Positions 3,264 through 57,146 of a stretch of 64,000 bases of DNA are shown here, piece after piece. A model generated the notes under the pieces. It had not been told where the DNA came from, searched no databases, and saw nothing but the letters and a program-made list of their open reading frames with translations. The position numbers were made by a program, and so were the translations under genes. The DNA is from an uncultured Acidimicrobiaceae bacterium (GTDB taxonomy: Bacteria; Actinomycetota; Acidimicrobiia; Acidimicrobiales; SZUA-35): positions 1 to 64,000 of the forward strand of contig CAMYLA010000003.1 in assembly GCA_947259095.1 (NCBI GenBank), read 5' to 3'. The first letter of the stretch is position 1; every line of letters begins with the position of its first letter.

Positions 3264-3824
3264 TCAACCGACCGCCTGGGCCCGTTCGCCGTTGGCGTTG
3301 GCCGGCGCATGTAAGATGTCGTCCGGCCCGAAGGTCTTGGTCCAGCAGGCGAACTCGAGGAGCACGCCATCGGGATCGCGGAAGTAGACGGAGCGGACGA
3401 AGACGCCGTCATGCATCTCGGCCGCAACGGTTCGCTCGCTGTCATCATGGTTCAACACCATGCTGGTCTCGACCCCCTTCGCCTTGAGCTTGTCGACGTA
3501 GTCGTCGAACAACTCGGCCGGCACGTCGAACGCCAGGTGGTTCATCGAGCCATGGGCCGACACGATGTTGCCTCCACCGGGCATCTCGCCCGCAGCGGCG
3601 ATCCCCGGAGCGTGGGGCGGTGCGCCGGGGAACCAGAAGAAGGCGACCGAGTCGCCGTTGCCGCAGTCGAAGAAGAAGTGCTGCCCGCCCCCCGGGATCT
3701 CCAGCGTCTTGATCAACGGCATGCCGAGGACATTGGTGTAGAAATCGACGGTGCGCTCCATATCGCTGCTGACCAGCGCAATGTGGTTGATTCCTCGAAA
3801 GTCGAATTCGGTGTTCTCGGCCAT
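3264..3824 (-). CDS. VOC/glyoxalase-family dioxygenase-like protein
   Basis: A 186-residue protein of the vicinal oxygen chelate fold. Residues 1-60 read GINHIALVSSDMERTVDFYTNVLGMPL, the classical first beta-alpha-beta module with a metal-binding His (NHIALV). The second module contains SMNHLAFDVPAE and ends with VYFRDPDGVLLEFACW, which supplies the second His and the metal-ligand Glu. Such proteins act on catechols, glyoxals or related substrates with a divalent metal. The ATG at 3824 follows GGGAGG by nine bases and is preferred over the longer in-frame GTG at 4037, which would overlap the divergent gene. It is the first gene of a pair with the cupin. Confidence 0.85.
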   Translation of the reverse strand: MAENTEFDFRGINHIALVSSDMERTVDFYTNVLGMPLIKTLEIPGGGQHFFFDCGNGDSVAFFWFPGAPPHAPGIAAAGEMPGGGNIVSAHGSMNHLAFDVPAELFDDYVDKLKAKGVETSMVLNHDDSERTVAAEMHDGVFVRSVYFRDPDGVLLEFACWTKTFGPDDILHAPANANGERAQAVG

Positions 3825-3857
3825 GGGTACCAGCCTCCCGGCTTGACGATTTCCTCC

Positions 3858-3863
3858 TACAGT
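3858..3863 (+). promoter_or_regulatory. Leaderless-type -10 TACAGT
   Basis: TACAGT is separated by six bases (ACGCCC) from the ATG at 3870, so transcription would begin at or next to the start codon. Confidence 0.45.
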
Positions 3864-3869
3864 ACGCCC

Positions 3870-4508
3870 ATGACTCGAACGAAGCAGATTCCACGCAGCG
3901 AGGTCGCCGAATCGGTGGCGCCGGTCTACGATCGACTCTTCGGCGATCGTGATCCGGTTGCCGAACCGGGCACGGCCACCGGGACTCCCGGCAACTGGTG
4001 GACGGTGTTCGCCCAGACCCCCGATCTGCTCGATCACATGGTGGCCGGCTTCGGCCTGTTCTCAAGCCCCGATCGGGTTCTCGATCCCCGGCTGCGGGAG
4101 TTGGCATTGACCAGGACCGGGTTCGTCGCCGGCAGCCAATTCGTGTTCAGCCAGCACTGCAAGGCGGCCCGGAATGTCGGGGTGACCGATGAGCAACTCG
4201 TTGCCATCCCGGCCTGGGCCACCGCCGAGGTCTTCTCGCCGGCCGAGCGGGCGGTGCTGGCCTACACCGATGAGCTGGTGCTGGCCGAGGGACGGGTGCA
4301 GGACGCCACCTATGACGTCCTGTCGAGCCACCTCGATGAGCAGGCCGTCATCGAACTCACCTACGCCGTCGCGACCTACCGGCTGCACGCCACGATGTGT
4401 CGTGCGCTTCGATTGGAGTTCGACGACGTGGCTGAGCGGATCGTCGAGGTCGCCGCTCCCGACGACGGCGGCCAGGATGTGATGGGCACGATCAGCATGC
4501 GGGACTGA
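3870..4508 (+). CDS. Carboxymuconolactone decarboxylase-family protein
   Basis: A 212-residue cytoplasmic helical protein of the CMD/AhpD-like superfamily. Diagnostic parts are DPRLRELALTRTGFVAGSQFVFSQHCKAARNVGVTDEQL (residues about 75-112), where the AhpD-like CxxC is reduced to a single Cys in SQHCKAA, and the later VIELTYAVATYRLHATM helix. Members are gamma-carboxymuconolactone decarboxylases or peroxiredoxin-recycling disulfide reductases. Loss of the CxxC pair argues against the AhpD type. The ATG start is supported by an adjacent TACAGT. The gene is divergent from the VOC gene, sharing a short 45-base promoter region, so the group may serve one aromatic catabolic function. Confidence 0.8.
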   Translation: MTRTKQIPRSEVAESVAPVYDRLFGDRDPVAEPGTATGTPGNWWTVFAQTPDLLDHMVAGFGLFSSPDRVLDPRLRELALTRTGFVAGSQFVFSQHCKAARNVGVTDEQLVAIPAWATAEVFSPAERAVLAYTDELVLAEGRVQDATYDVLSSHLDEQAVIELTYAVATYRLHATMCRALRLEFDDVAERIVEVAAPDDGGQDVMGTISMRD

Positions 4509-4530
4509 AGACCATGATGGGCCGGCCAAC

Positions 4531-4599
4531 CGGCGCCCGCCCACGGCGACGGCGCAAGCGTCTCGGGCACGAGCGATCACCTTGGAAAGGCGGGCGCCG
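4531..4599. repeat. 11-bp perfect inverted repeat with long loop
   Basis: CGGCGCCCGCC (4531-4541) is the exact reverse complement of GGCGGGCGCCG (4589-4599), with a 47-base loop. It lies between two same-strand genes. It could be a structured 3' end of the upstream transcript, but the loop is long and no T-run follows. Confidence 0.4.
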
Positions 4600-4636
4600 A
4601 GCGGTGGGCCGGTTCGAGGTCGAGCGGTGCTGGCGA

Positions 4637-4642
4637 TAACGT
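4637..4642 (+). promoter_or_regulatory. Leaderless-type -10 TAACGT
   Basis: TAACGT sits six bases before the ATG at 4649, in the spacing repeated across this window. Confidence 0.45.
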
Positions 4643-4648
4643 GCTTGC

Positions 4649-5065
4649 ATGGCCGAGCAGATGTTCGACGACCCGGGGCTTCAGCGATACCTGTCGGCGA
4701 AGGACGTGGTGATCCTGGCGGTGCTCACCGCCGGCGGGGGGCCGTTGGCCACCCCGATGTGGTTCGTCCACGACGAGGAACACCTGGCCATGGTGAGCGT
4801 GGACGGGCTGGCCAAGGTCCGCTACCTGGAGCGGGACCCTCGTGTGAGCGTCGTGGCCGAAGGTGGCGAGCGTGGCGCCATCAACGGGGTCGTCCTGACC
4901 GGCCAGGTTCGCTTCGTCGACGGCGACGAGCGACTCCTGTGGGGTCGTCGATTCTTCGACAAGTACGCCCCCGATATCGAGCGCCTCTGGGACGGCCCCG
5001 GTATCCCAGACAACCGGCGGGTCTTCGTGCTCCGGCCCCGGGTTGCATCCGCCTTCGGGCTCTGA
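4649..5065 (+). CDS. PPOX/split-barrel flavin or F420-binding protein
   Basis: A 138-residue protein of the pyridoxamine-5'-phosphate-oxidase-like split-barrel fold. It reads LSAKDVVILAVLTAGGGPLATPMWFVHDEEHLAMVSVDGLAKVRYLERDPRVSVVAEG, the usual order of the first barrel strands: a substrate strand, the PxWF strand, then the K-x-R-x-L-x-x-x-P cofactor-phosphate segment. The family uses FMN or F420 to reduce small substrates. Choice of cofactor cannot be read from the sequence, although two F420/flavin-type LLM oxidoreductases lie nearby in the genome. The start is supported by an adjacent TAACGT. Confidence 0.8.
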   Translation: MAEQMFDDPGLQRYLSAKDVVILAVLTAGGGPLATPMWFVHDEEHLAMVSVDGLAKVRYLERDPRVSVVAEGGERGAINGVVLTGQVRFVDGDERLLWGRRFFDKYAPDIERLWDGPGIPDNRRVFVLRPRVASAFGL

Positions 5066-5145
5066 ATCGCCAGTGGGGCTCGGCCACGAGCGTCCTCGGC
5101 CAACAGATCGTGCGGCGCACTGGGAAACGGCTGAAGGTGTTCCGT

Positions 5146-7359
5146 TCAGCTTGCCGACGAGGGCCGGTCGAAGAACGATGGTGGCGGCACGTAGAGATAC
5201 TCACCGCCCAGCAGCGTCACCACTTCGTTGCCGGCCGAAGGAACGAACACGTCGTTCCCTTCCCGACCACGTCGCTCGATCGGCAGGAACTGTGTGTCGA
5301 TCGAGTTGGTGTAGGCGGCGAAGAGAAGGCCCTTCGTCCGGTCGGAGGAGTTGGCAGGCCAATAGGGGACACCTCGCCTGACGATCGCCGCAGACCCGGG
5401 GTTCCGTTCATTCATCAACCAGACGTGTGGTGTCGGCAGGCGGGCATCGACCGCGGTCGGCTCCCCGGTGGTGGGCTGCTCGCCGTCCTCCGGCCAGCGG
5501 AAGTCGTTGAACTGGGGTCCGTCGCCGACGCCGGATCGATGGGTCGGCGAGCCGTCGGCGCGCCGACCGACCAGCGCCGCCTCGGCGCCGGCGACGTCAA
5601 GCCCATGAAGCTCGGCGAGTTGGTTCACCTTCTCTTCGTAGGCGGCCTGATCCTGCTCCAGTTTCTGGAACACCAGGAAGCTTCCGTAGCCCCTGCCCTC
5701 GTGTCCGACGAGGGCGATCTTGGGCGAGGCCCCCTCGTACCATTGATCAGCGCCGTTGGGGTGGGACCGGAGCGCATCGCAGGCGAAGAACCACGGGTTG
5801 CTGATCCCGTCGATGTTGCCGAACGGCTCCACGGTCCTGGCGAAGCGCCGCCGGCTGAAGTCATGGCCGGGCTGGTTCGGTTGCCCGGCGATTGACGCCG
5901 GCGCCGCTGCGCTGGTCGGAGGCTTGTCCGGATCATCCCGGGAGCCGCGCTCGACCACCACGGTGCACCCGACCCCCTCGAGCTCGCCGACCAACGTTGC
6001 GACCTTGGTCTCGACACCAGCGGCTGAGCCGGCCACGGTCAGGAGCAGGTGGATGTCGTGTTCGTAGGCCCAGCGGGCGTCGGCTCCCTGCCTCGCCTTC
6101 ATGCCATCGATGAAGGCGGCCCCGTCGACATGGGCCGGGCGGGCCAGGTCAAGCGCTTCGAAGCCCGTTGAACTGATGGCGCACAGCACGATGGCCGGGA
6201 GGTCTCGCTGGCCCATGCGGTAGTGCTCCAGCTCATCGAAGGCGGTCGCCAATTCGAACTCCTCGGTACCGAGGAGCTCCCGTAGTTCACTCGGCTCGGC
6301 GCCGACGGTGACCAGCAGGTGGCTCACCGCCTCCCGGTAGTGGGGCCGGAGGATATTGGCCTGGACCTGGTGAAGCTCGCCGGCCAGGTCCTCGGGAATG
6401 GCCCGGTCGGGGTCGGGGTACCACCGGATCGGGAATGAGCTGAGCAACGCCTCTTGTCGCCAGACAACCTCACAGCCGTCGCCCAGTGGGCCCGTCGGCC
6501 GGTCGGCATCAGCCGGCATCTGGTCTTCCCCGGGCTGTCGTTTGTTGGTGAATCTGTTGACCACAACCTGCCCCGGCTCGGGTGGCGGTGACTCGTAGCC
6601 GCCACCCCAATTGAACGGCACACCCTGGTTTCGGTAAGGCAGGTATGCTTCGTGGCCACGACTGACGACGCCGTCGATGTCGTTGAGGAGGCGCCGGCGA
6701 TCGGCGGAGCCCGGTCTGTAGTCCTTGTCGCGAGGCCACTGGGCTGCCACCTTCTTCAGCTCCTCGTCGATGTCAGCGCCCTCGACGGCAAACTCCTTCT
6801 CGCCCATCCACCCCGAGTTGGCGGGAACGAAGACCCAGACGTTGAAACTCTTCGATTCGCGGCTGTTGTGGATGGCGACCCGCATCCTGTTGTGATTGCA
6901 CTGGGTCATCATCCCGGTCGGGCGGGAGCCGTCCAGGACCAACTGCGCCATCTCGGCCCCGGTTCGCCGCATGATCTGGTGCATCTGACGGGGCGAGAGC
7001 TCGGAGTCGAAGCGCCACATGTTGTCGACGGCCAGGAACCAGTCGCGGTCGATGGACAGCGACTCGAACTTGAACGTCTCGCCCCTGGCTTCGCTCTCGG
7101 CCTTCATCTCGTCGAAGGCCGGTTCCCACCCGACGGTGCTCTCGGTGAGCGTGAGCAGTGCGCCGATCAGGCGGCTGGGCTCTAGAAGCGGATCGCTGTC
7201 GTCAGGAGGGTCCGGGGCGAGTGGGCCGAGTAGGATATCCCGGAAGGCCTCCAGCGCTTCACGATGTTCGTCGAGGTTGTCGGCGATCTGGTCGAAGAGC
7301 TTCACCACGAAGTCGAGCTCGTAGTGAACCCCTCCGGACCATTTGGCGAATATCGGCAT
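5146..7359 (-). CDS. DyP-type peroxidase with a ~320-residue N-terminal extension
   Basis: 737 residues. The C-terminal half (about 330-700) is a dye-decolorizing-type heme peroxidase: QANILRPHYREAVSHLLV, then FGNIDGISNP with the catalytic Asp (residue 517) of the GxxDG motif, GSFLVFQKLEQ, the proximal His in TPHVWLMNERNP (645), the distal Arg in IVRRGVPYW (661-662), and GLLFAAYTNSIDTQF. All three expected heme-pocket residues are therefore present. Residues 1-320 match no domain I recognise and contain no signal peptide; they include FDQIADNLDEHREALEAF and CNHNRMRVAIHNSRES. The protein is roughly twice the usual DyP length. It starts 18 bases after the stop of the cyclase-ATPase gene on the same strand, so the two are probably co-transcribed. 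Confidence 0.85.
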   Translation of the reverse strand: MPIFAKWSGGVHYELDFVVKLFDQIADNLDEHREALEAFRDILLGPLAPDPPDDSDPLLEPSRLIGALLTLTESTVGWEPAFDEMKAESEARGETFKFESLSIDRDWFLAVDNMWRFDSELSPRQMHQIMRRTGAEMAQLVLDGSRPTGMMTQCNHNRMRVAIHNSRESKSFNVWVFVPANSGWMGEKEFAVEGADIDEELKKVAAQWPRDKDYRPGSADRRRLLNDIDGVVSRGHEAYLPYRNQGVPFNWGGGYESPPPEPGQVVVNRFTNKRQPGEDQMPADADRPTGPLGDGCEVVWRQEALLSSFPIRWYPDPDRAIPEDLAGELHQVQANILRPHYREAVSHLLVTVGAEPSELRELLGTEEFELATAFDELEHYRMGQRDLPAIVLCAISSTGFEALDLARPAHVDGAAFIDGMKARQGADARWAYEHDIHLLLTVAGSAAGVETKVATLVGELEGVGCTVVVERGSRDDPDKPPTSAAAPASIAGQPNQPGHDFSRRRFARTVEPFGNIDGISNPWFFACDALRSHPNGADQWYEGASPKIALVGHEGRGYGSFLVFQKLEQDQAAYEEKVNQLAELHGLDVAGAEAALVGRRADGSPTHRSGVGDGPQFNDFRWPEDGEQPTTGEPTAVDARLPTPHVWLMNERNPGSAAIVRRGVPYWPANSSDRTKGLLFAAYTNSIDTQFLPIERRGREGNDVFVPSAGNEVVTLLGGEYLYVPPPSFFDRPSSAS

Positions 7360-11221: not shown

Positions 11222-11254
11222 CCTTGGAACCCCTGAAACAGCGGGGTTCCAAGG
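11222..11254. terminator. Perfect 12-bp hairpin, terminator-like
   Basis: CCTTGGAACCCC (11222-11233) pairs exactly with GGGGTTCCAAGG (11243-11254) around a nine-base loop. It lies 22 bases after the isochorismatase remnant and before the next promoter. There is no T-run, so intrinsic termination is plausible but unproven. Confidence 0.55.
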
Positions 11255-18645: not shown

Positions 18646-18651
18646 TAGGCT
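18646..18651 (+). promoter_or_regulatory. Leaderless-type -10 TAGGCT
   Basis: TAGGCT ends six bases before the GTG at 18658, consistent with leaderless transcription of the dioxygenase gene. Confidence 0.45.
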
Positions 18652-18657
18652 GGCCCG

Positions 18658-19509
18658 GTGGACCGCGCCCGGATGCAAGACCACTTGGCCCGTATCGAGC
18701 GGGACGGGTACACCGTTGTCGAGGGAGCCATAGGGCCCGAGCTGAACGACATGCTCCGAGACACCGTTCGCCGGCTCTTCGTCGAGCTCGACGTCCAGCC
18801 GAGGGGCAACCGGGCCGAAGGTTTCGCCACCAGGCGTCTCTACAACCTGGTGCCTCGCCACGAGGCGTTCCGGGAGCTGCCGATCCACGACAACGTGCTG
18901 CCGGTGGTGGAGCAACTCCTGGAACCGGAGTGCATCCTGTCCGGCACGACCGCCATGGACATCGGCCCGGGGGAGCGGCTGCAGGGTCTCCACGCCGACG
19001 ACGGGCTGTTCAAGATCGGGCGACCTCACCGGCCGATGATGTCGACCACCATCTGGGCCCTGACCGACTTCACCGCCGAGAACGGGGCCACCAGGATCGT
19101 TCCCGGCTCCCACCGGGAGCCGGGCCACCCCGACCCCGACGACGACTCGATCGCCATCCCGGCCGAAATGTCGGCCGGCAGCGTGCTCATCATGGACTCT
19201 CAGCTGTGGCACTGCGGCGGCCCGAACACCACCGCCGACGATTGGCGGCTCGGTCTCAACGTGCAGTATGTCCGCGGTTTCTTCCGGACCCAGCAGAATC
19301 AGTACCTGTCGATCCCGCCCGAGCAGGTCCGGGAGTACCCGCAGCGGCTGCGGGAGGTCCTCGGCTTCGAGTTGTACCGCGGCATCATGGGCCATGTCGA
19401 TGGTGCCAGCCCGGCTGCGGTGGTCGGTGCCCACTCGGCCAAGGCCACCGCCTACAGCGCCAGCAGCGACACCAACCCGTTCGGCGACGCCGGGGTCGCC
19501 GACACCTGA
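18658..19509 (+). CDS. Phytanoyl-CoA dioxygenase-family (PhyH-like) oxygenase
   Basis: 283 residues of the Fe(II)/2-oxoglutarate-dependent PhyH family. The iron-binding triad is visible as LQGLHADDG (H-x-D) and LIMDSQLWHCGG (distal His), with RLGLNVQYVRGFF supplying the Arg that usually binds 2-oxoglutarate, and NGATRIVPGSH between. Such enzymes hydroxylate or halogen-swap small lipids and natural products in the cytoplasm. The GTG start is supported by TAGGCT. It is divergent from the MoxR operon and is followed by a convergent LLM oxidoreductase, so no shared operon reveals the substrate. Confidence 0.88.
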   Translation: MDRARMQDHLARIERDGYTVVEGAIGPELNDMLRDTVRRLFVELDVQPRGNRAEGFATRRLYNLVPRHEAFRELPIHDNVLPVVEQLLEPECILSGTTAMDIGPGERLQGLHADDGLFKIGRPHRPMMSTTIWALTDFTAENGATRIVPGSHREPGHPDPDDDSIAIPAEMSAGSVLIMDSQLWHCGGPNTTADDWRLGLNVQYVRGFFRTQQNQYLSIPPEQVREYPQRLREVLGFELYRGIMGHVDGASPAAVVGAHSAKATAYSASSDTNPFGDAGVADT

Positions 19510-30713: not shown

Positions 30714-31434
30714 GCGGGAGCCGGACGGTCCGCATCGGTCGGGCTCAGCCCGGGCTTCGGGAAAGCGCCGGGGCCCGGTGTTCTCGGTTGCCGACGGCCA
30801 GTACCGGCCTCGATGGCGGGGACGGATCCACCTCGCAGGGTTCCTGGTCAGCTTCCCGGCCGGCGCAGCGCTGGTCTGGGCCGCCGATTCGGTGCAGGAG
30901 GCAGTGGGGCTGTTGATCTATGTGTTCAGCCTGATGCTGCTGTTCGGCACCTCGGCCGCCTACCATCTGCTGGCCCGCTCCGAACGGGCGCAGGGGATCA
31001 TGCGGCGACTCGACCACTCGATGATCTACGTGCAGATCGCCGGCACCTACACCCCGGTCTGCCTGTTGGCTCTGCCCCCGGCCTGGGGGCTCCCCATCCT
31101 CATCCTGATCTGGGTCAGTGCGTTGGTCGGCGTCGTTGTGAAGCTGTTCGGAGGCCCGGCGCTGCTGCGGATAAGCAATGCCGGCTACATCGTGCTGGGC
31201 TGGGTGGCCCTGGCCGCACTGCCGGTGATCCTGCGCCACCTCAGCCCCGGTGAGTTCGTGCTGCTCGTCATCGGCGGTGTGATGTACACGGCGGGGGCGA
31301 TCCTGTTCTTCTGTCGTCTGCCGAGACTTCGGCCGACCACCTTCGGGTATCACGAGGTGTGGCACGGCTTCACCGTCGTCGCTGCCCTGGCGCACTTCGC
31401 CATGGTGTGGTCGGTCGCCGTGGGGTCGGCCGGG

Positions 31435-31437
<3 letters not shown>
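30706..31437 (+). CDS. Hemolysin III / progestin-AdipoQ-receptor (PAQR)-family membrane protein
   Basis: 243 residues with seven hydrophobic segments. Conserved family marks are FGTSAAYHLL (metal-binding His), RRLDHSMIYVQIAGTYTPVCL (D-H-x-x-I and TY-P) and HEVWHGFTVVAALAHF near the C terminus with the last two His residues. Members are PAQR-like membrane hydrolases. The start ATG at 30706 lies inside the previous gene, so translation is coupled. The stop codon abuts the 3' end of the convergent RNase P RNA gene. Confidence 0.9.
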
Positions 31438-31807
<370 letters not shown>

Positions 31808-46544: not shown

Positions 46545-46550
46545 TAGGCT
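46545..46550 (+). promoter_or_regulatory. Leaderless-type -10 TAGGCT
   Basis: TAGGCT ends six bases before the GTG of fixC at 46557. Confidence 0.45.
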
Positions 46551-46556
46551 GATGCG

Positions 46557-47864
46557 GTGACAGCAGCCCAGGAAGTGGATGTGATCGTGGTCGGAGCGGG
46601 CCCGGCCGGGTCGGCGTCGGCGATGGTGGCGGCCAGGGCCGGGTTGTCGGTGGTGCTGCTCGAACGGGGTCCGTTCCCCGGCTCGAAGAACATGTATGGC
46701 GGGGTCGTCTACGGTCGGATCCTCGATGACCTGGTGCCCCGATGGTACGACGAGATGCCGGTCCAGCGGTGGGTGACGCGACGCTCCACGATGGTCATGG
46801 ACCAGGACCGAGCCTTGACCGTGGACTTCCGGGCCCCGGCCTGGGGCCGCCAACCATACAACGGTGCGACCATCTACCGGCCCGACTTCGACGCCTGGCT
46901 GGCCGACAAGGCGGTCGCCGCCGGGGCCCGGCTGGTCACCTCCACCACCGCCCGGGAGTTACTGATGGAGCGGGGCTCGGTCGTTGGGGTGGCGACCGAC
47001 CGTCCAGACGGTCTGCTTCGGGCCCCGGTGGTGATCGCCTGCGACGGGGTCAACTCCTTTCTGGCCAAGCAGGCCGGGCTCTACCCCCACACCGAGTCCT
47101 CACACTTCACGCTGGGGGCCAAGGAGACGCTCGCCCTGCCCAAGGAGCTGATCGACCAACGCTTTGGTGTTCGCGGCCGGGAAGGGGTCGACATCGAGAT
47201 CATCGGCGCCACCCAGGGCCTGGCCGGCGGCGGCTTCGTCTACACCAACCTCGACTCGGTGGCCGTCGGTGTGGTGGTCGGCGTCGACGAGTTGTCCAAG
47301 GCCGGTCTTCGGCCGGAGGAGCTGATTGCCAGGCTGAAGTTGCATTCGGCGATCGCTCCGTTGATCGAGGGGGCGGAGCTGAAGGAGTACTCGGCCCACC
47401 TGATCCCCGAAGGGGGCTACAAGACGATGCCCGAGCTCTGCACCGATGGCATGTTGGTGGCCGGTGATGCCGCCTGTATGACCCTGGCGGCCGGCATCTG
47501 GCTCGAGGGGGTCAACTTCGCCATCGGTTCGGGGGCGGTTGCGGGGGAGGTCGCAGTCGCAGCCCACGCCCGCAAGGACTTCACGGCTGCGTCGCTCGGC
47601 CGATACCCGAAGCTGTTGGAGCAGTCGTTCGTGCTGGCCGACCACCGACGGTTCCAGGATGCCCCCGAGTTGGTGCTGTCGGAACGGGTCCAGACCGCCT
47701 ACCCGGCGATGGTGTGCGACATCGTCGAGCGGCTGTTCACCGTCACCAACCCCACGCCGAAACCGGGACTGCGTCGGTTGCTGCGGACGGCGGCCAAAAA
47801 CAATGGTGTGAAGCTGCGGGACCTGGCCCGGGACGGGCTCCGCGGGTTGCGGACCTTCGGCTGA
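46557..47864 (+). CDS. fixC: FixC-like FAD-dependent electron transfer flavoprotein dehydrogenase
   Basis: 435 residues. VDVIVVGAGPAGSASAMVAARAGLSVVLLERG is the FAD GxGxxG-Rossmann start; PFPGSKNMYGGVVYGR is the FixC/ETF-QO fingerprint, and LVAGDAACMTLAAGIWLEGVNFAIGSG the second FAD-binding loop. This enzyme takes electrons from EtfAB and passes them on, usually with the ferredoxin FixX, to quinone. Its opposite orientation to etfA (convergent, six bases apart) and distance from fixX show separate transcription. The GTG is supported by TAGGCT. Confidence 0.92.
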   Translation: MTAAQEVDVIVVGAGPAGSASAMVAARAGLSVVLLERGPFPGSKNMYGGVVYGRILDDLVPRWYDEMPVQRWVTRRSTMVMDQDRALTVDFRAPAWGRQPYNGATIYRPDFDAWLADKAVAAGARLVTSTTARELLMERGSVVGVATDRPDGLLRAPVVIACDGVNSFLAKQAGLYPHTESSHFTLGAKETLALPKELIDQRFGVRGREGVDIEIIGATQGLAGGGFVYTNLDSVAVGVVVGVDELSKAGLRPEELIARLKLHSAIAPLIEGAELKEYSAHLIPEGGYKTMPELCTDGMLVAGDAACMTLAAGIWLEGVNFAIGSGAVAGEVAVAAHARKDFTAASLGRYPKLLEQSFVLADHRRFQDAPELVLSERVQTAYPAMVCDIVERLFTVTNPTPKPGLRRLLRTAAKNNGVKLRDLARDGLRGLRTFG

Positions 47865-55982: not shown

Positions 55983-57146
55983 CTAACGGAGGTCGAAGCA
56001 GACCTTGATCGACCCGAGCGAGCCGGCCGAGGCGGCGTGGGTCATGGCCCGCTCGTAGTCCTCCAAAGGGTATGTGGCCGAGACCAGCCGACCGAGGTCG
56101 GCCGCCTCCGCCAGTTCGATCGCCATGTCGAAGCTCCGACGGGAGGTGCCGTCGGCCAGTTGCTCGGTACCGTAGGTATAGGCCCCGACCAATTCGGTTT
56201 CCCGATGCCACAGCGCCGTGAGGTCCACCGAGACCCGGCCCGGCATGCCGACGAGCACCACCCGGCCCCGGGGACGGGCCGTGCCGATGGCCTGGTCGAC
56301 CGAGGCCGCGGAGCCGACCGCATCGATGACCACGTCGGCGCCACCGGAGAGATCGTCACCGATCATGAAACTGCCGGAAGCCCGGCGCACGGCCCGGCCG
56401 AACTCGGTCGGTTCGACCACCAGGTCGGCTCCCAGCGAGCGGGCCAGAGCCTGCTGTTCCGGGTATTTCGCCCCCACGATGACCGTGGCGGCGGGGCAGA
56501 AGTGGCGAATGGCGGCCAACGCCATCAGCCCCATGGTGCCGGCGCCAAGGATGGCCACGGTCTGACCTTCGACGATCCGAGCCTTCATTGCGGCGTGGAC
56601 CCCGACCGCAGCGGGCTCGACCATCACAGCCGCCTCGTCCGACATCGTGTCCGGGACCGGGTGGAGCTGGCTGTCGTGAGCGACGAAACCGGTGGACCAG
56701 CCGCCGCCGGTGGATGCGCAGTAGCCGGTCTGGATCCCCGGTTCGAGGTGACCCCCGACCAGGTGGCGGTAGTCCTCGCCGTCGCCAGGGGCCGCACCGG
56801 GGAACGGTGGCTGGAAACCCCGGGCCTCGTGTCCCAGCACCGGTTCCAGGACGACACGGACACCGTCTTCGCGGTCGCCGACGACCTCATGGCCCGGGAT
56901 GAACGGGAACGACACCCACGGCTCGAAATAGCGCGACGACTTGCCGTCGACGGTGGCGAGATCCGATCCGCAGATCCCGGCCAGGCGCGTCTTCACCCGG
57001 CGCCAGCCCGGGCCCGGGAGTTCGATGTCGTCGGCTTCGACCAGCGCCAGCGGACCGGTGCTGGCACCACTCCCGGGGCGGATCCGAGACGAGATGGCGG
57101 CCGCCACATAGCGGGCTTCCTTGCGACTGAACTCCAGTGCTCTCAC
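55983..57146 (-). CDS. Zinc-type medium-chain alcohol dehydrogenase
   Basis: 387 residues of the MDR superfamily. RLAGICGSDLATVDG holds the catalytic-zinc Cys and its following GSD. PFIPGHEVVG supplies the GHE His-Glu, and VEPAAVGVHAA is the usual second zinc segment. VAILGAGTMGLMALAAI is the NAD(P) Rossmann motif. The structural-zinc Cys cluster is not obvious (STGGGWSTGFVAHD in its place). It is upstream of mftA on the same strand, 150 bases away, so it may be a substrate-side dehydrogenase using mycofactocin, which is inference from position only. Confidence 0.85.
   Translation of the reverse strand: MRALEFSRKEARYVAAAISSRIRPGSGASTGPLALVEADDIELPGPGWRRVKTRLAGICGSDLATVDGKSSRYFEPWVSFPFIPGHEVVGDREDGVRVVLEPVLGHEARGFQPPFPGAAPGDGEDYRHLVGGHLEPGIQTGYCASTGGGWSTGFVAHDSQLHPVPDTMSDEAAVMVEPAAVGVHAAMKARIVEGQTVAILGAGTMGLMALAAIRHFCPAATVIVGAKYPEQQALARSLGADLVVEPTEFGRAVRRASGSFMIGDDLSGGADVVIDAVGSAASVDQAIGTARPRGRVVLVGMPGRVSVDLTALWHRETELVGAYTYGTEQLADGTSRRSFDMAIELAEAADLGRLVSATYPLEDYERAMTHAASAGSLGSIKVCFDLR

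Follow-up and report, generated by a model that had tools for sequence, protein, structure and literature searches.

Inverted Repeat in the Spacer Between the CMD and Split-Barrel Genes

The inverted repeat found between the genes for a carboxymuconolactone decarboxylase (CMD) family protein and a PNPOx-like split-barrel protein is real, yet unremarkable, and it is probably a lineage-specific, GC-driven structure in an ordinary intergenic spacer that has no dedicated conserved function. In the window, i.e., the whole 64-kb stretch of DNA analyzed (68% GC), recomputation gave the 5' arm (CGGCGCCCGCC) at 4531–4541 and the 3' arm (GGCGGGCGCCG), its exact reverse complement, at 4589–4599, both on the + strand and separated by the 47-nt loop of the predicted fold (4542–4588). 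Accordingly, the coordinates, the perfect 11-bp arms and the loop size of the preliminary description are all exactly correct. When mismatches are allowed, the ungapped arms grow to 22 nt with 77% complementarity (4520–4541/4589–4610), and in the MFE structure predicted for the + strand an imperfect outward extension of the stem spans 4510–4621. The repeat lies in the 140-bp gap from the CMD stop (4508) to the split-barrel ATG (4649) and begins 22 nt past the stop codon. Its description as sitting between two redox genes agrees with the Pfam assignments, as the CMD gene (3870–4508, PF02627, E 4.7e-14) and the split-barrel gene (4649–5065, PF01243, E 4e-12) belong to redox-type families and are both encoded on the + strand. 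Beyond the latter, a 737-aa protein is encoded on the – strand (5146–7359), with a Dyp-type peroxidase C-terminal domain (residues 634–698, E 6.4e-5) as its single Pfam match at E ≤ 0.001, the long N-terminal part being without a match at this threshold.

Chance Expectation and Predicted Folding

When the 140-bp gap was dinucleotide-shuffled 2000 times, 14 of the shuffled sequences contained a perfect repeat of at least 11 bp with a loop of 3–60, hence the repeat is mildly above chance within its own gap. This local rarity, however, must be weighed against the choice of the repeat out of 64 kb of DNA with 68% GC, in which an occasional pair of perfect 11-bp arms is to be expected. Across the whole window, seven such repeats were counted versus 0–5 (mean 2.4) in 12 shuffles, and five of the seven are located inside predicted genes. 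Two lie in the predicted gaps that exceed 40 bp (28 in total), with at least one repeat being found in 41/200 shuffles and at least two in 5/200; the borders of these gaps are rough, as genes were predicted by a simple GC-by-codon-position script (CMD start at 3411 versus 3870). As a class, gaps may thus be slightly enriched in such repeats. The arm sequence itself is at chance level, with 15 matches in the window at one mismatch versus 15.85 expected.

Folding of positions 4510–4622 yields an MFE of –63.7 kcal/mol on the + strand (z –2.93) and of –60.4 kcal/mol on the – strand (z –2.91), each being reached by one of 200 shuffles. Among 6390 overlapping 113-nt windows, the + strand fold ranks 57th by raw energy and, after GC correction, 120th by residual (z –1.96). 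Pairing within the loop is weak on the + strand, where MFE and centroid structures differ, and is predicted to be firmer on the – strand. The outer 3' side of the predicted stem overlaps the place where the –35 element of the split-barrel gene would be expected from spacing.

Likeness to Terminators, Dispersed Repeats and Known RNAs

Like an intrinsic (Rho-independent) terminator, the repeat provides a GC-rich stem, here of 11 perfect pairs, soon after a stop codon. In contrast to such terminators, it has a loop of 47 nt instead of a few bases, lacks a U-run and is missing behind the orthologs examined. The stem is directly followed by AGCGGTGGGCC on the + strand and by GTTGGCCGGCC on the – strand, neither being a T-run, and in its loop size and this lack of a T-run on either strand the repeat falls short of an intrinsic terminator. 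A terminator scan of 3800–5300 returned 0 sites (shuffles mean 0.8), but it covers loops of 3–8 and is blind to one of 47 nt; as loops this large lie outside its range, the scan is uninformative on the repeat.

In the own genome (6.4-Mb assembly, 229 contigs), the exact arm pair with 20–50 bases between the arms occurs once, with no second copy. A dispersed palindromic repeat (REP, MITE), which would need many copies, is therefore not supported by this exact-pattern search. At least 21 other own-genome DNA matches at E ≤ 1 were obtained when scoring 40 of 97 candidates, all short GC-rich pieces with a best E of 0.003. Likewise, a known structured RNA is rejected, since no Rfam 15 covariance model matches at the repeat when the whole window is searched at gathering scores. 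A permissive search (E up to 5) of 4440–4720 gave only a weak eukaryotic snoRNA match at 4680–4720, outside the repeat, and no tRNA or tmRNA was found in 4000–5200. Elsewhere in the window, the bacterial class A RNase P RNA is encoded at 31431–31806 on the – strand (RF00010, 244.7 bits). Another hairpin, CCTTGGAACCCC at 11222–11254, with a perfect 12-bp stem and a 9-nt loop but without a T-run, is situated in a 750-bp gap between divergent predicted genes; it has no second own-genome match at E ≤ 0.1.

Conservation in Relatives

A CMD protein search gave matches at E ≤ 1e-30 in 21 of 61 genomes, with close orthologs (72–82% identity) in six relatives (L033–L038). At all six of these loci a divergent glyoxalase-family gene lies beside the CMD gene, and at none of them was the split-barrel gene detected within about 1500 bases beyond CMD (tblastn, E ≤ 1e-5). 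Within 140 nt behind the CMD stop, the best perfect arms in L033 to L038 measure 7, 7, 8, 5, 7, and 8 bp, respectively. Among 22 CMD-family loci, which include the window itself and a paralogue from the own genome, two, namely the window and L043, have perfect arms that reach 11 bp or more in the first 140 nt behind the stop. The latter, a distant CMD homologue (54%), has 15-bp arms enclosing a loop of 16 behind its stop, with a different stem sequence. Palindromic stretches with CTGGAGGCC are present downstream of the CMD homologue in both L043, where they form the 15-bp perfect arms, and L040. Both loci come from genomes of another genus in the family (g8), in which the CTGGAGGCC palindromes are possibly a dispersed repeat.

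For the split-barrel gene, 38 other family genomes yielded three full-length orthologs (67–75% identity) and one partial homologue (L013). The upstream comparison covered the three full-length orthologs, ahead of which the best arms measure 7 bp (L011), 7 bp (L012), and 6 bp (L054). The spacer (4509–4636) has no match at E ≤ 0.001 in any of 11 congeners among the candidates scored (at most 40). When querying with 4440–4720, matches at E ≤ 0.001 were obtained in at least 16 of the 61 genomes, counting the own genome, with at most 12 candidates scored per genome. The larger matches correspond to coding ends, either the CMD end (G012, G013, and G050) or the split-barrel start (G003 and G023), and others are pieces of 22–45 bases that by query position fall into the CMD coding end or the first bases after the stop. 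Two short matches within the spacer (E about 2e-4) cover one arm each, in G053 (4519–4554, 85%) and G037 (4591–4625, 86%). They do not represent a conserved repeat, as neither locus carries either 11-bp arm, the best repeats there are 7 and 8 bp, and both are located in long open frames; we read them as probable GC-rich chance matches. From these comparisons, the spacer appears to be lineage-specific and GC-rich.

Putative Leaderless-Type Promoter of the Split-Barrel Gene

The leaderless-type promoter that the preliminary description placed just behind the repeat is borne out by its motif and is the better-supported part of the finding. A leaderless-type –10 element, TAACGT (4637–4642, + strand), ends six bases before the split-barrel ATG, in line with the TANNNT-to-start arrangement of leaderless promoters; TANNNT is given as the –10 of leaderless starts of Mycobacterium tuberculosis in a published study (PMC10937400). 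At the same spacing and within a short similar block, the motif is present in two of the three orthologs (TAACGT in L012 and TAGCGT in L011), while L054 has no TANNNT there. A sigma-70 consensus scan requiring both hexamers found none in 3800–5300, which leaves the split-barrel promoter without a clear –35.

Possible Roles of the Repeat

For the GC-driven reading speak the frequency of such repeats in shuffled gaps (41/200), the fold rank (120/6390), the short arms at orthologs, the unmatched spacer, the single genome copy and the lack of both a T-run and an Rfam match. Against it stand the scarcity in shuffles of the own gap (14/2000), a fold more stable than its shuffles by about 3 sd on either strand, the seven window repeats exceeding all 12 shuffles, the pair of repeats in gaps seen in only 5/200 shuffles, the site right behind a stop codon, where 3' structure would be expected, and the strong stem of other sequence behind the stop of the distant homologue L043 (54%). 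The preliminary suggestion of a structured 3' end of the upstream transcript is left unsupported by the missing T-run, the oversized loop and the lack of an equivalent stem at orthologs of the upstream gene. A 3'-end structure of the CMD-family mRNA might nevertheless work without a U-run, the stem pausing RNA polymerase (with or without Rho/NusG) or blocking 3' exonucleases and thereby keeping read-through off the next promoter. The position of the repeat 22 nt after the stop and ahead of the next gene's own promoter would suit this, as would the stability of the predicted stem and the view, expressed in a hairpin-cluster study, that a U trail is non-essential (PMC8355165). The same study, however, gives typical stems of 4–14 bp and loops of 5–10 (PMC8355165), the latter far from 47 nt. 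With T-runs missing on both strands and six close orthologs without a comparable stem, we consider such a role unlikely: it is possible but unsupported. A specialized version, in which the long-loop U-less stem would mark a boundary between gene end and leaderless promoter by terminating transcription or making it pause, the next leaderless mRNA thereby arising from its own start alone, appears highly improbable. REP/BIME-like elements are 3' UTR stabilizing stem-loops belonging to repeated families. The repeat resembles them in that a stem predicted to be stable follows a stop codon, but differs by its single-copy arm pair and large loop.

At the DNA level, an operator or cruciform governing the split-barrel promoter could be imagined, considering that the outer predicted stem extends to the place of the –35 region. 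Yet, the arms are 47 bases apart, unlike in a usual operator, L011 and L012 share the –10 but have no comparable upstream arms, and the arm pair lacks a second genome copy, making a site of this kind highly improbable. Also highly improbable is a structured regulatory or small RNA closed by the 11-bp stem. The long closing helix is compatible with it, as is a certain amount of pairing inside, stronger on the – strand, whereas the snoRNA match outside the repeat, the sole one in 4440–4720 at E up to 5, and a spacer unmatched in 11 congeners argue against it.

Under the favored, GC-driven reading, a CMD transcript running into the repeat would be predicted to fold into a stable large-loop stem, at most slowing polymerase or exonucleases near its 3' end. 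Judging from the shared –10, transcription of the split-barrel gene most likely begins at its own leaderless promoter downstream, independent of the repeat. If both CMD and the split-barrel gene are leaderless, the repeat would reside in the CMD 3' untranslated region and be irrelevant to the split-barrel gene. Loop size, tail and conservation should serve as filters for repeats of this type, and the adjacent leaderless-type –10 is the better lead.

By visual inspection of ten chosen predicted starts, TANNNT was found exactly six bases ahead at four, i.e., 3870, 4649, 18658, and 46557 (spans including the start, 3858–3870, 4637–4649, 18646–18658, and 46545–46557), and seven bases ahead at 57146. 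On the basis of this motif, leaderless transcription looks common in the genome.
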